This document shows, in pieces, positions 4,400 to 11,349 of a stretch of 27,176 bases of DNA (its first letter is position 1; every line of letters begins with the position of its first letter). The DNA comes from a virus. The DNA lies in IMG/VR virus record IMGVR_UViG_3300025771_000151, positions 1 to 27,176 of that record. One strand, written 5' to 3'. Both the position numbers and the translations under genes were made by a program. The notes below the pieces were generated by a model, which had not been told where the DNA came from, made no database searches, and worked only from the letters and a program-made list of their open reading frames with translations.

Positions 4400-4804
4400 A
4401 TGTCACAATTAACTGAAGAACAGAAGAAAGAGTTTCGGCAACTGACCGACGAATGTGGACTCACTCAAGACGACTTCCACTTCCACAAGCACTACTGCAT
4501 CATCAAGCGCAAGGGCATCGAAAAGATTCAAGCCAACTATGGCATCACGGTGGAATTCGAGGAGGTGCTGTGTGAGCCTATGTTCTTTTGCCTTAAGGCC
4601 AAGGGCAAAATTCTCATGGAATATGAGAACAGCAAACAATGGATGTTTATGGAGACCTACGGATCGGCCTGCCCCAAGAACTGCCAGACGGCATACCTGC
4701 CTGAGATGGCTGAGAAGCGCGCTCTCTCTCGCGTGGTCCTCAAGCTGGTAGGCTTGTATCAGTACAATATCTTCGGCGAGGACGAAATCGACGAGAAAGA
4801 ATGA
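4400..4804 (+). CDS. Putative single-strand annealing or recombination protein
   Basis: A 134-residue protein. The segment ETYGSACPKNCQTAYLPEM and then AEKRALSRVVLKLVG (residues about 86-118) has the look of phage proteins in which a GEA.P.N...YP.AMAEKRA.DR..LKL pattern is followed by an acidic end (here GEDEIDEKE). The pattern recalls the helical end of Rad52/ERF-like annealing proteins (EKRAxxRxLxxLxG, then ED). The N-terminal half has a KRKGIEKIQANYGI element, also seen in such recombinases. The Rad52-like assignment is my inference and is weak. The gene lies between replication genes and a DNA methyltransferase, starts after an A-run leader, and overlaps the next gene by 4 bases. Confidence 0.55.
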   Translation: MSQLTEEQKKEFRQLTDECGLTQDDFHFHKHYCIIKRKGIEKIQANYGITVEFEEVLCEPMFFCLKAKGKILMEYENSKQWMFMETYGSACPKNCQTAYLPEMAEKRALSRVVLKLVGLYQYNIFGEDEIDEKE

Positions 4805-5700
4805 ATCATGGCAGCCTATTCTCTGGCATTGGCGGGTTTGACTTAGCGGCGGAGTGGATGGGTTGGACCAACGTGTTCAACTGCGAGTGGGAGGAGTTTC
4901 CTCGTCAGGTTCTCAGACACCATTTTCCAAAAACCAAACAATATGGAGACATCAAAGACTTCGACGCGACAGCTTACGCTGGACGAATTGATATCCTCAC
5001 AGGAGGGTTCCCATGTCAACCCTATAGCGCAGCAGGACGAAAGCTCGGAAAAGATGATGACCGCCACCTGTGGCCCGAGATGCTGCGCGTTATTAGAGAA
5101 TGCTCCCCGCGTTACGTCGTGGGCGAAAACGTTCGCGGCCTTGTTAGTTGGAATGGAGGGTTGGTCTTCGAAGAGGTGTGCGCTGACTTGGAAGCTCTCG
5201 GGTACTCCGTACAACCGTGTCTACTTGGTGCTGCAAGCGTCAACGCTCCGCACAAACGAATGCGAGTATGGTTCATTGCCCACGCCGAACGCGTTCGACT
5301 GGAACACCCCGAGGAGCGACGAGGCATGGGAGAGGTCCAAGGACAAGTGGGGCGACAGCCTACACACACCTCTCAAGCAGTTGGCGGCCCAGGGCCTATT
5401 GCCCACACCAGCCACCAGAGACTACAAGGGGGCAAACAGCATGGAGCATCTAACCAGAGAGAGCAGCAATCGGAATCACTTAGATCAATTGCCCAACGCG
5501 ATCAAATTGGCAACTGGGAACACTTCCCAACTCAACCCCCTGTTTGTGGAGGAGATGATGGGATTCCCAGAGAATTGGACTCTATCGCCTTTTCTAAATG
5601 GCGTAAAGAATCCATCAAAGGATATGGGAACGCCATAGTCCCGCAAGTGGCCCACCAAATCTTCAAAGCAATAGAGCAATATGAGCGACTGGATAGATAA
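4801..5700 (+). CDS. dcm: DNA (cytosine-5) methyltransferase
   Basis: A 299-residue C5-cytosine methyltransferase that transfers a methyl group from S-adenosylmethionine to cytosine in DNA, probably shielding phage DNA from host restriction. Conserved motifs are complete: motif I FSGIGGFDLAAE (7-18), motif IV GGFPCQPYSAAG (68-79) with catalytic Cys72, motif VI GENVRGL (108-114), motif VIII KRMRVWFIAHA (152-162) and motif X GYGNAIVPQVA (274-284). The target-recognition part (about 163-262) is unusually rich in Gln, His, Gly and Arg. That same stretch also encodes a second long frame (4943-5638). No restriction partner is nearby, so it is a solitary methyltransferase. It overlaps the next gene by 20 bases. 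Confidence 0.93.
   Translation: MNHGSLFSGIGGFDLAAEWMGWTNVFNCEWEEFPRQVLRHHFPKTKQYGDIKDFDATAYAGRIDILTGGFPCQPYSAAGRKLGKDDDRHLWPEMLRVIRECSPRYVVGENVRGLVSWNGGLVFEEVCADLEALGYSVQPCLLGAASVNAPHKRMRVWFIAHAERVRLEHPEERRGMGEVQGQVGRQPTHTSQAVGGPGPIAHTSHQRLQGGKQHGASNQREQQSESLRSIAQRDQIGNWEHFPTQPPVCGGDDGIPRELDSIAFSKWRKESIKGYGNAIVPQVAHQIFKAIEQYERLDR
4943..5638 (+). CDS. Long overlapping frame inside the methyltransferase gene
   Basis: A 231-codon frame in the +1 register, lying wholly inside the methyltransferase gene. It reads like a real protein: SWAKTFAALLVGMEGW, TWKLSGTPYNRVYLVLQ, two LPTP motifs (SLPTPNAFDW and LLPTPATRDYKG) and LNPLFVEEMMGFPENWT near the end. I recall similar LPTP...LNPxFVxxMMGFPxxWT proteins encoded next to or over phage Dcm-type genes, but I could not check this. 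The methyltransferase frame is of biased composition just where this frame looks most protein-like, as expected for overprinting. The start codon is uncertain, with no Shine-Dalgarno sequence. It may be untranslated. Confidence 0.45.
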   Translation: METSKTSTRQLTLDELISSQEGSHVNPIAQQDESSEKMMTATCGPRCCALLENAPRVTSWAKTFAALLVGMEGWSSKRCALTWKLSGTPYNRVYLVLQASTLRTNECEYGSLPTPNAFDWNTPRSDEAWERSKDKWGDSLHTPLKQLAAQGLLPTPATRDYKGANSMEHLTRESSNRNHLDQLPNAIKLATGNTSQLNPLFVEEMMGFPENWTLSPFLNGVKNPSKDMGTP

Positions 5701-8071: not shown

Positions 8072-8275
8072 TCAAATACCCTTCTTAGCCAACAAGAGTT
8101 TTAACTCGTGGATGCCGTCAACGCACTTCTGCAACATTTCTTTCATCTCGTTTTGGTCGTTTTCAAGCCTGTATACGCGGCCCTTGAGTTTCGCTACTTC
8201 GCTATTGAGTGAAACCCACACTCCAATAGCAGCGGCGATAGAGGGGATGAGTCCTACTAGTGTATCTACATTCAT
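8072..8275 (-). CDS. XhlA-like membrane protein, lysis-associated
   Basis: A 67-residue protein with an N-terminal hydrophobic segment (LVGLIPSIAAAIGVWVSL, residues about 6-23), followed by a coiled coil with good heptads (EVAKLKGRVYRLENDQNEMKE begins it). This is the layout of the XhlA/haemolysin family found next to phage lysis genes, which sits in the inner membrane and helps the holin and endolysin, although its topology here is reversed compared with the usual C-terminal membrane anchor. It overlaps the CHU_C gene by 4 bases (ATGA). Confidence 0.65.
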   Translation of the reverse strand: MNVDTLVGLIPSIAAAIGVWVSLNSEVAKLKGRVYRLENDQNEMKEMLQKCVDGIHELKLLLAKKGI

Positions 8276-9249
8276 CTGAATATTGTTACTGTTCCGTTGA
8301 TCTCAACGGCTTTGGTGGAGTTAAATGTCGTTGCTTTGATTGTCCAGATATAAACCCCGTCGGGCACAAAAGCAGCGAGCCTGTTACCAAGCCATTTGTC
8401 ATTGGGGTCGTAGCTTATCCACACAAGTGTACCCCACCTGTTGTAGACGCGGCACTCCCACTTCCACCAGCACTCTGATGTCGTGACGGGCTTCCAGTAG
8501 TCGTTGCTCCCGTCGTTGTTAGGGGTGAAGGTGTTGGGGCAGAAGATGAGTGGGTCGTTGCAGTTCTCTCCCGCTTCGGGGTAGTATTCGCAAGGCCCTA
8601 CAATTGTACATTCTTCGCAGTAGTTGATAGCTACTGGGTCTACGCAGCCTTGATATACGCACGAGCCGTCGTCCTCCGTGGCTTCTTCATTGTAGTTGTA
8701 AGCGAACCAATCGGTACAGCCTAGCACGATAGGCGGAGGCGGTGGGTCACACGCTCCATTGAGGCTCCATGTAATCCAGCTGTTGAAGATATTGTCGTCG
8801 CCAAATTCTGGGTTATCGTTGATTTGCGTGACAGCCGTCACGACGCACTCTTCAAAATAGGCTGCGTCCTGAAATATCTCGATCCAGCAGTTGGCCGTCC
8901 CCGACCCCGCCCACGGAGTTTCAAGGAGGTTGAACGTTACCGTGTCCCCCGTCTGGAGAATATCATCGTCGCCCTCACCGATGTGGAATCCAGGAAAGTT
9001 AAGGGGGAAGATGAGATAGGCCCACCCGTCAGGGTAGAAGCACGGCCACGTATCCTGAGGGTTCTCGATGGGTGGTTGGAAGGTGAGGCCCAGCAGGAAT
9101 TCGCCTACGCTGTCGTTCTCTGTCATGCACGCCCCACCAAGGACCGTGATGGTCATATCCGTCGAGATAGGATTGAACCCCACGATTTCGATGTCGCATT
9201 GCCCGTAGGACAGATAAGGAATCAGAAACCAGAATAGTACCCTCTTCAT
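8272..9249 (-). CDS. Secreted protein with T9SS type B sorting domain (CHU_C)
   Basis: A 325-residue protein. Starting at 9249 gives a signal peptide (MKRVLFWFLIPYLSYGQ, then CDIE) and an ATGA overlap with the protease gene; the longer frame from 9282 would hide it. Residues about 18-170 are an unrecognised beta-rich region. Residues 178-197 carry the GCTDWFAYNYNEEATEDDGS motif common in marine Bacteroidota surface proteins. Residues about 238-325 form a CHU_C domain: PNTFTPNNDGSNDYW, RVYNRWGTLVW and DGVYIWTIKA. This domain directs proteins through the type IX secretion system to the cell surface. In a phage it is unexpected. It could be a secreted cargo, or a virion tip or fibre protein. Confidence 0.85.
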   Translation of the reverse strand: MKRVLFWFLIPYLSYGQCDIEIVGFNPISTDMTITVLGGACMTENDSVGEFLLGLTFQPPIENPQDTWPCFYPDGWAYLIFPLNFPGFHIGEGDDDILQTGDTVTFNLLETPWAGSGTANCWIEIFQDAAYFEECVVTAVTQINDNPEFGDDNIFNSWITWSLNGACDPPPPPIVLGCTDWFAYNYNEEATEDDGSCVYQGCVDPVAINYCEECTIVGPCEYYPEAGENCNDPLIFCPNTFTPNNDGSNDYWKPVTTSECWWKWECRVYNRWGTLVWISYDPNDKWLGNRLAAFVPDGVYIWTIKATTFNSTKAVEINGTVTIFR

Positions 9250-11159
9250 TGCACAAATACTTTCTTGGTTACAGCTCCCCACTTGAGGATGTAGACGCCT
9301 GTCGCGAGCTGATTAATGTCGCCGCGCACCCGACGCCCAGTCATATCGTATACACGAGGCATACCAGCAGGGAAAAATGATCCGTAGTCACTAGCCGCTT
9401 CAATAATTACATCCTTAAGCATACCTGTAGAGAAGTCCTGTTCGAGCGGGCAATCTCCAAGGATAGTCAACATATACAGCAAGTCCATAACGTTTACAAC
9501 CCCATCATTGTTTGGGTCTGTCTGGCATTCTGATTGACACCCGTATTCCAGCATCATCTCAAGGATGTCGCCATTACCTACAGCTCCGTTGCCGTCAAAG
9601 TCGAGAGGGCAGTCGCCGACAGAGAAACAGAAGGTTGTGTCGAAGAGAGAGTATTCTGTTTGCTCCGTCGCGAAGAGCACGTTGCCTCCAACCGTGGCCG
9701 TGATTCCCTCCCCCCCGAAGTCGCATACCCCATCATTCCCAAAGTCCATGGAGCACATGCCGTCCCCATTGCTGTCAGTAGCCTCGAAGGTATAGCACCC
9801 CTCATACACGCAGACCTCGTACTCGTATGTGTTCACGCCAAACGGGTAGTCCCCATCGCCAATCACGACCTCTCCTGTTGCATCGTAGAGTACCCAGTCG
9901 ACTTCGTTGGCCCAGTTGTCAGTCCCCACCACAATGTCCATGACCTCGCCATATACGGTCTCAATAGGCCACCAAGCGTAGTCGTTGTCTTGGTATTGGT
10001 CAAGCTCGCTGACCACCTGTACCTCGAACATCTGCGCTCCATCGACATATACACCCTCAAACATAACCTCGTGGGTGCCAGTAGGAACGTCGAATAAGTA
10101 CTCTACGTATTGGTTTCCATTGACGTAGAGCTGCACCTCTATGATATCCAAAGGAAGTGTCCCTTGGTTTACTATGTCGACCCAGATATCTTGAGTGGGC
10201 GTGCACCACGTCTGCTGGTAGTAAGCAGCAAGTGGGGTGGCGTCGTAGTCTACTACAGGAACACAAGACAGGTTGTCGAGCAGGCCAGACCGAACACCTT
10301 GGAGACACTCGTGCATACGCTCCGACTGGCCCACGGTAAAAGACTCGCGGCACGTCTCAGGGGTGTAGTCCATGAAGTTCTCGATTAGAGCATCAGGGCA
10401 GTCAGCAGCAAGACATCCCACGTCATTGGGTGTGGTGGGTGGCGTGTCGCATACTTCGTCACCCTGAGTCTCGCAGTTCGTCTCTACGCAGTCGTTCGAG
10501 TTAGAAAATGTATGCCAAAGAGAAAGGTGATGCCCCATCTCGTGAACCCCTGTAAACCCAAGCTCTCGACCTGGCTTCAGCGTGCCTACGTTGCCCGTGA
10601 CGTTGTACAGACATACCACTCCGTCGCGACAATCCCCCGTTGGGCCGAGGTAAGCAAATCCTTGAATGCCCCAGCCTCCGTCGTTGCCGTTAATCTCGCT
10701 GACTACATAGTAATTGATGTATTCGTCAGGGTTCCAGCACCCCGCGTCACTCTTAACTTGTGTCTGATCGGCCCCGCTACCCGACCCATTGCTAATCCCA
10801 TTCGCCATATACTCATCATTCCAGCTGTAATCGGTGCGAGTGATGCCGTTGGTGGGGTTGCCCTCGGGGTCGCGCACAGCCATACAAAACTGGATTTTGC
10901 TGTCGGCGAACTCTTCGTTCAGAACGTCGACCTGCGACATGATTTGTTCGTCAGAGATGTTGTTCTCCGCACCAGCGCCAGTATGTACAATATGAAATAC
11001 GATGGGTATAGTCACCGTGTCCACATCATTCAAATCCACCTCTACCCGATTCGCCTCAAGCCCCATGATTTTAGGCTCAAATAGGATGGAGCATTCCTCT
11101 TGAGCTGTGATTGCGTTAAACAATAGAGTGAACAGAGAGAGAAGGAAAAGTTGTTTCAT
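9246..11159 (-). CDS. Secreted M43-type metalloprotease with T9SS type A tail
   Basis: A 637-residue protein. Starting at 11159 gives a signal peptide (MKQLFLLSLFTLLFNAITAQ). Residues about 45-300 are a pappalysin-type (M43) metalloprotease: zinc site HEMGHHLSLWH (206-216), CDTPP (237-241) and a Met-turn NFMDY (261-265). The Gly of the usual HExxHxxGxxH is Ser213. Beta-rich adhesion-like regions follow (about 305-510), then two calcium-loop, dockerin-like repeats (DFDGNGAVGNGD, 520-531; DPNNDGVVNVMD, 548-559). Residues about 599-637 form a type A T9SS tail (RVYDMTGRRV, LATGVYILKWG). It lies between the tail-tip and CHU_C genes. A protease that is exported by, or mimics, the host T9SS is the best reading. 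Confidence 0.88.
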   Translation of the reverse strand: MKQLFLLSLFTLLFNAITAQEECSILFEPKIMGLEANRVEVDLNDVDTVTIPIVFHIVHTGAGAENNISDEQIMSQVDVLNEEFADSKIQFCMAVRDPEGNPTNGITRTDYSWNDEYMANGISNGSGSGADQTQVKSDAGCWNPDEYINYYVVSEINGNDGGWGIQGFAYLGPTGDCRDGVVCLYNVTGNVGTLKPGRELGFTGVHEMGHHLSLWHTFSNSNDCVETNCETQGDEVCDTPPTTPNDVGCLAADCPDALIENFMDYTPETCRESFTVGQSERMHECLQGVRSGLLDNLSCVPVVDYDATPLAAYYQQTWCTPTQDIWVDIVNQGTLPLDIIEVQLYVNGNQYVEYLFDVPTGTHEVMFEGVYVDGAQMFEVQVVSELDQYQDNDYAWWPIETVYGEVMDIVVGTDNWANEVDWVLYDATGEVVIGDGDYPFGVNTYEYEVCVYEGCYTFEATDSNGDGMCSMDFGNDGVCDFGGEGITATVGGNVLFATEQTEYSLFDTTFCFSVGDCPLDFDGNGAVGNGDILEMMLEYGCQSECQTDPNNDGVVNVMDLLYMLTILGDCPLEQDFSTGMLKDVIIEAASDYGSFFPAGMPRVYDMTGRRVRGDINQLATGVYILKWGAVTKKVFVQ

Positions 11160-11169
11160 ATGGTAGTTT

Positions 11170-11349
11170 TTAGCGTGCTTTCGGTGGCCCTTCTCCCGTA
11201 TCACCTGTGACATCAGCCAGCATCTGGTCGATGATGTTCGATAGCAGATTGATTCGGTCAATCAACTCTTGTTGAGTTGGACTCGCGGGCAAATCTCCAA
11301 TGTCCTCCCGCAAATCGGGTACAAAATAGTTTGTTATTTCAGTGCTCAT
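11170..11349 (-). CDS. Small hypothetical tail-region protein, 59 residues
   Basis: A 59-residue acidic protein (MSTEITNYFVPDLREDIGDL at the start) with a helical middle (TQQELIDRINLLSNIIDQML) and a Gly- and Pro-rich end. Its ATG overlaps the stop of the large tail-protein gene (ATGA), and it ends 10 bases before the protease start, so it fills the gap exactly. The heptad-like helix suggests a small oligomer, perhaps a chaperone or trimeric tip piece. No family recognised. Confidence 0.65.
   Translation of the reverse strand: MSTEITNYFVPDLREDIGDLPASPTQQELIDRINLLSNIIDQMLADVTGDTGEGPPKAR

Follow-up and report, generated by a model that had tools for sequence, protein, structure and literature searches.

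A similar natural two-part C5-cytosine DNA methyltransferase is already known, M.EcoHK31I, where the small open reading frame (ORF) is contained in the large gene but read in a different register, and where both proteins are required in vitro; the interesting part of the arrangement described here is its breadth across phages. In M.EcoHK31I (YGGCCR), one polypeptide is reported to carry motifs I-VIII together with motif X, and the other motif IX alone, with the recognition domain predicted to be in the large subunit (PMC3404938); this enzyme has been described as a naturally split C5-methyltransferase (PMC3439449). In the open papers where we sought the frame arrangement of this enzyme, we found the motif division alone. 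M.AquI (CYCGRG) is also a two-polypeptide C5-methyltransferase, and has motifs IX and X in the small subunit (PMC3404938). In the single-chain enzymes M.HhaI and M.HaeIII, a single reading frame specifies one chain with motifs I-VIII, the target-recognition domain (TRD) and motif IX.

We analyzed a dcm-type gene in a window of 27,176 nucleotides (the whole stretch of DNA under study, positions 1 to 27,176 of the IMG/VR virus record IMGVR_UViG_3300025771_000151), within which a second, long ORF is present in the +1 register. Based on the sequences of both ORFs and their relatives, we consider it highly probable that each of these ORFs encodes one subunit of a single C5-cytosine DNA methyltransferase, with both subunits specified by the same DNA. 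The features of the locus are as follows.

4801-5700, + strand: large-chain ORF, 299 codons (299 aa)
4813..4839, + strand: motif I (SLFSGIGGF, aa 5-13), long frame, outside the overlap; invariant columns in alignment A2
4943-5638, + strand: small-chain ORF, 231 codons from its ATG, in the +1 register and wholly inside 4801-5700
4943..4945, + strand: ATG within TAT GGA, where translation of the small chain probably begins, from conservation and codon bias
5002..5022, + strand: motif IV with the catalytic Cys (GGFPCQP, aa 68-74), long frame; invariant columns in A2, aligning with GFPCQ of M.HhaI
5072..5242, + strand: conserved N-terminal part of the small chain (aa 44-100), helices and then the strand pair LTWKLSGTPYNR..LVL
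5125..5133, + strand: motif VI (ENV, aa 109-111), long frame; invariant columns in A2
5251..5271, + strand: motif VIII (HKRMRVW, aa 151-157), long frame; invariant or near-invariant columns in A2
5276..5287, + strand: first LPTP motif (aa 112-115), +1 frame, from sequence
5296..5634, + strand: stretch of the long frame that comprises the linker and continues to motif X (aa 166-278), with predicted disorder (pLDDT < 50)
5399..5410, + strand: second LPTP motif (aa 153-156), +1 frame; nearly invariant in relatives
5528..5581, + strand: motif IX-like segment (QLNPLFVEEMMGFPENWT, aa 196-213), +1 frame; invariant L197, M205, M206, G207, P209 and W212
5608..5673, + strand: motif X (ESIKGYGNAIVPQVAHQIFKAI, aa 270-291), long frame; invariant Y, G, N, A, V, P and Q in A2

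The 4801-5700 ORF is predicted to encode a C5-cytosine DNA methyltransferase large chain (alpha type), with motifs I-VIII, a disordered linker and motif X. Searches with this chain identified PF00145 in Pfam (E = 5e-45), with a match only to residue 168, PHROG 363 over residues 1-296 (E = 9e-76), and the M.HhaI profile over residues 5-169 (E = 1e-31). The catalytic motifs I-VIII match those of the single-chain enzymes over 160 residues, and the M.HhaI and M.HaeIII profiles match only through motif VIII. The AlphaFold2 model of the large chain contains a confident core made up of most of residues 1-165, disorder over residues 166-278, and a C-terminal helix at residues 280-298, and a Foldseek search with this chain found M.HhaI (E = 4e-14). 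Motif IX was not found in the long frame. A single-chain M.HhaI type was rejected for this locus, since the M.HhaI profile match stops at residue 169 and motif IX is present in the +1 frame only. An M.AquI-type assignment was also rejected: although both enzymes are naturally split after motif VIII, motif X of M.AquI is in the small subunit, whereas here it is in the long frame, with the small frame ending at 5638, before most of motif X.

Likened to M.EcoHK31I by its published description, the phage pair shows the same motif division, i.e., motifs I-VIII and X in the large chain, with motif IX separate. The phage pair is also nested, with 4943-5638 inside 4801-5700 at +1, and is under selection. 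It differs from M.EcoHK31I in that the large chain has a disordered linker where the TRD would be expected, and in that the variable region is in the small chain. The segment of the long frame between motifs VIII and X is predicted to be disordered and evolves with a +1 periodicity, which points to the small chain as the probable site of recognition.

The original prediction described a 231-codon +1 ORF containing two LPTP motifs and LNPLFVEEMMGFPENWT, and this matches our ORF list and the sequence exactly; this ORF does span most of the dcm-type gene (696 of 900 nt). It was also proposed that the overlap corresponds to the variable target-recognition part of the methyltransferase, but the region covered is wider, as it takes in motifs IV-VIII (~aa 48-160) and the conserved segment directly before motif X. 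The bias towards Gln, His, Gly and Arg ascribed to the methyltransferase frame over this stretch is present in the linker between motifs VIII and X (~aa 166-238), and is absent from the rest of the overlap. In the other forward frame of the gene, the longest open run is 88 codons. When the synonymous codons of the gene were permuted, a +1 run of at least 231 codons occurred in 20 of 20,000 trials, and the interval was free of +1 stops in 6 of 20,000 trials. By itself, the length of the +1 ORF is only moderately unusual, and this single sequence is suggestive and inconclusive. A chance or composition-driven open frame without a coding role would be compatible with such numbers, as a 231-codon run in 0.1% of synonymous permutations is not overwhelming for a lone sequence, but the relatives make this explanation close to negligible: the +1 frame is free of stops in all of them, the synonymous constraint is bounded by the ends of the ORF, and substitutions show the periodicity of the +1 frame.

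Relatives were gathered using the long-frame protein only, and thus the set is not selected for the +1 frame. Removal of duplicates gave 66 distinct relatives, which are 51-67% identical except for one near-identical contig. The +1 frame is open in 66 of 66, over 215-311 codons, and the +2 frame in the same 66 relatives is open for at most 106 codons. Four-fold sites were analyzed in 48 sequences, all <85% identical. With the overlap divided into three parts, pairs of sequences agree at the third base in 66%, 82% and 78% of cases; upstream of the +1 ATG this agreement is 36%, and downstream of the +1 stop it is 33%, compared to an expectation of ~30% (inside versus outside the overlap, MWU P = 2e-10). 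Since the third position of a long-frame codon corresponds to position 2 of a +1 codon, the +1 protein is altered by any wobble substitution that is silent in the long frame. In the linker between motifs VIII and X, substitutions are commonest at position 1 of the long frame, i.e., the wobble position of the +1 frame, and this is unchanged whether the alignment follows the long frame, the +1 frame or the nucleotides. Both frames are coding and are conserved together, as the claim of conserved dual coding had it, with synonymous sites constrained exactly over the overlap rather than neutral. It is the conservation that is decisive, and on this basis the reading of 4943-5638 as a real, conserved overprinted coding frame is strongly supported.

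The small frame is found at +1 over the large chain in 160 of 160 viral loci, including loci found using the small protein, and over a methyltransferase chain in 79 of 80 genome loci and in 4 phages, with the 80th genome locus containing runs of N. Among the relatives found, none encodes the small protein without an overlapping large chain. One locus that appeared to be “fused” at first look (L178) was rejected, as this stretch contains runs of N, and L059 was rejected as an exception, as the same overlap is present and the best match had been to a second, unrelated methyltransferase. The family is present in 3 of 395 genomes drawn from one phylum, a number too small for a statement of prevalence.

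An ATG is present at the site equivalent to 4943 in 51 of 67 sequences, with most of the others containing an in-frame ATG four codons upstream. The Tyr codon in which this start is embedded is TAT in 39 of 45 cases, whereas TAT accounts for 113 of the 420 Tyr codons at other sites (P = 4e-15). A Shine-Dalgarno-like core before the small-chain ATG is absent in 67 of 67 sequences, which is expected if the hosts are Bacteroidota, where this absence is a known trait of the phylum. The start site also bears on the alternative that ribosomal frameshifting joins the two frames into one chain, in the order I-VIII, TRD, IX and X. This order of modules along the DNA is indeed that of a single-chain enzyme, and there are actinophage versions in which a single frame holds a larger share of the module, but frameshifting would require two shifts, into +1 and back again to reach motif X. 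Together with the conserved start codon of the small frame and the codon bias found there, and with a long frame that is open between motifs VIII and X in all relatives, this makes frameshifting very improbable.

We read 4943-5638 as a putative small (beta-type) chain, with a conserved N-terminal part, a variable LPTP region and a motif-IX-like segment. The near-invariant residues are W60, F64, W74, L81, W83, T88 and R92, and strands E80-88 and E92-100 are predicted, although in a low-confidence model. Invariant residues concentrate in the C-terminal SQL(N/S)PxFVxEMMGFPxxWT (core LxPxFVxEMMGFPxxW), a segment that resembles motif IX (compare LTPRECxRLQGFP of single-chain phage enzymes). Searches of the small chain against Pfam and NCBIfam gave no match, and searches of the PDB, by sequence and by profile, gave no useful match to solved structures. 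Modeled alone with AlphaFold2, this chain gives a poor model (pLDDT 60, pTM 0.28), for which Foldseek returned only noise and no fold match. As there is no structural match for the small chain, the assignment of motif IX rests on the sequence pattern and on single-chain relatives. For example, in Gordonia and mycobacterial phages, the LPTP region and a motif-IX-like EWMMxxPxGWVT are present in one chain with motifs I-VIII and X, in that order, and comparison of the small-chain profile with the VIII-X region of single-chain actinophage methyltransferases gave an hhalign probability of 96.9%, with reversed and shuffled controls at ≤1.2%. The small chain is related to this single-chain region.

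The product of the +1 frame had been proposed to be unknown, which no longer applies. This frame matches PHROG 1008, “DNA methyltransferase” (E = 2e-22), always lies over the large chain of a methyltransferase, carries the motif IX absent from the long chain, and corresponds to the annotated second methyltransferase ORFs of Paenibacillus phages. PHROG 363 and PHROG 1008 correspond to the large- and small-chain families, respectively; for neither is a mechanism given or the mutual overlap stated. The Dcm pairs of Paenibacillus larvae phages (e.g., Tadhana_54/_55) show the same +1 nesting and the same small-chain family, with both ORFs annotated as DNA-cytosine methyltransferase, but differ in a small-chain identity of ~29% and a divergent C-terminal part of the large chain. 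A de novo overprinted gene of unrelated function was rejected, as selection is present and the product is a methyltransferase-family protein. It could still be argued that the product of the +1 frame is a genuine protein of different function, for example a regulator, a host-takeover protein or an anti-restriction protein, and that its frame overlaps the methyltransferase gene by happenstance, given that the association of the two chains is our inference and that the small chain is without a Pfam, NCBIfam or fold match. We consider this unlikely, since the small chain occurs only over a methyltransferase large chain, with an unchanged offset in all usable loci, since it has the motif IX missing from the large chain and the PHROG 1008 match, and since in actinophage methyltransferases its module is combined with motifs I-VIII and X in a single chain.

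In the two-subunit reading that we prefer, the large chain would bind AdoMet and provide the catalytic Cys through motifs I-VIII, followed by a flexible linker and by motif X, which would close the catalytic domain. The small chain would start at the internal +1 ATG and contribute the small DNA-binding domain, comprising motif IX and the variable region for target recognition. The two chains would associate to form one active enzyme, in which the large and small domains of a C5-methyltransferase are rebuilt. Such an overlap would be tolerated because a flexible linker is all that the long frame has to provide between motifs VIII and X, and it is here that the small chain varies most. The window is that of a tailed phage, with terminase, portal, head protease and major head protein genes, and, as a difference from M.EcoHK31I, this copy is in a phage with no restriction gene seen among the annotated neighbors in the window. 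From this context, protection of phage DNA is a likely role, where the enzyme probably methylates phage DNA against host restriction.

Elsewhere in the window, the protein encoded at 8272-9282 (- strand) contains a CHU_C type IX secretion signal domain (PF13585, E = 2e-14). The adjoining gene, at 9246-11261 (- strand), sits between tail-type and lysis genes and encodes a large protein in which a metallopeptidase domain of the M43 (PAPP-A-like) type is present (E = 8e-17). The CHU_C domain protein is odd in a phage structural region, and suggests a Bacteroidota host.

We consider it evenly balanced whether phages of Bacteroidota, Bacillota, Pseudomonadota and Actinomycetota generally have overlapping +1 specificity subunits in their Dcm-type genes, with the position of the split shifting from lineage to lineage and motifs IX and X in either chain. 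If true, dual coding would link the evolution of the catalytic core and of target recognition in one of the commonest phage enzymes. The spread of this arrangement and the moving split point may be under-appreciated: the small frame is often unannotated or “hypothetical”, and many methyltransferases of phages and Bacteroidota are thus annotated as one chain that would lack its recognition half. Codon-optimized cloning of the long ORF would destroy the second subunit, and the resulting enzyme could be dead or non-specific. The locus also provides a long, well-supported same-strand overlap where both products have a testable function.

Our survey of relatives included several further arrangements. 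An enterobacterial relative was sought among plasmids, where canonical single-chain enzymes were found instead. Actinophage Dcm genes whose long chain includes motifs IX and X nevertheless carry a +1 ORF over motifs V-VIII (L247 1544-2123, L251 1832-2144, L252 1832-2336, L255 1739-2060 and L264-L288), with a conserved-looking pattern, ~W.T...S.T.P.SG....G.L..L....T...SLPTP. As many single-chain actinophage relatives contain this +1 ORF, they may not be pure single-chain enzymes, and its presence beside long-chain motifs IX and X indicates that the division between frames varies by lineage. A +1 ORF, not annotated as such, is also present in the Dcm genes of Escherichia phage BEU33 (L261 1376-2171) and Edwardsiella phage eiAU (L254, from 1400), where it ends in a variant motif (QLNPAHSRWLMG.PPEW). 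In Mycobacteriophage ICleared (L246 1480-2575), motifs I-VIII are in one gene (gp78), and LPTP, IX and X are in the separate, following gene (gp77), which overlaps at +1 and has the same LPTP/IX module, so that this pair looks like an AquI-like split. On a Bacteroides finegoldii plasmid (L258 1558-2675), the long methyltransferase frame is stopped at ~2128, and the +1 frame is open for 353 codons.
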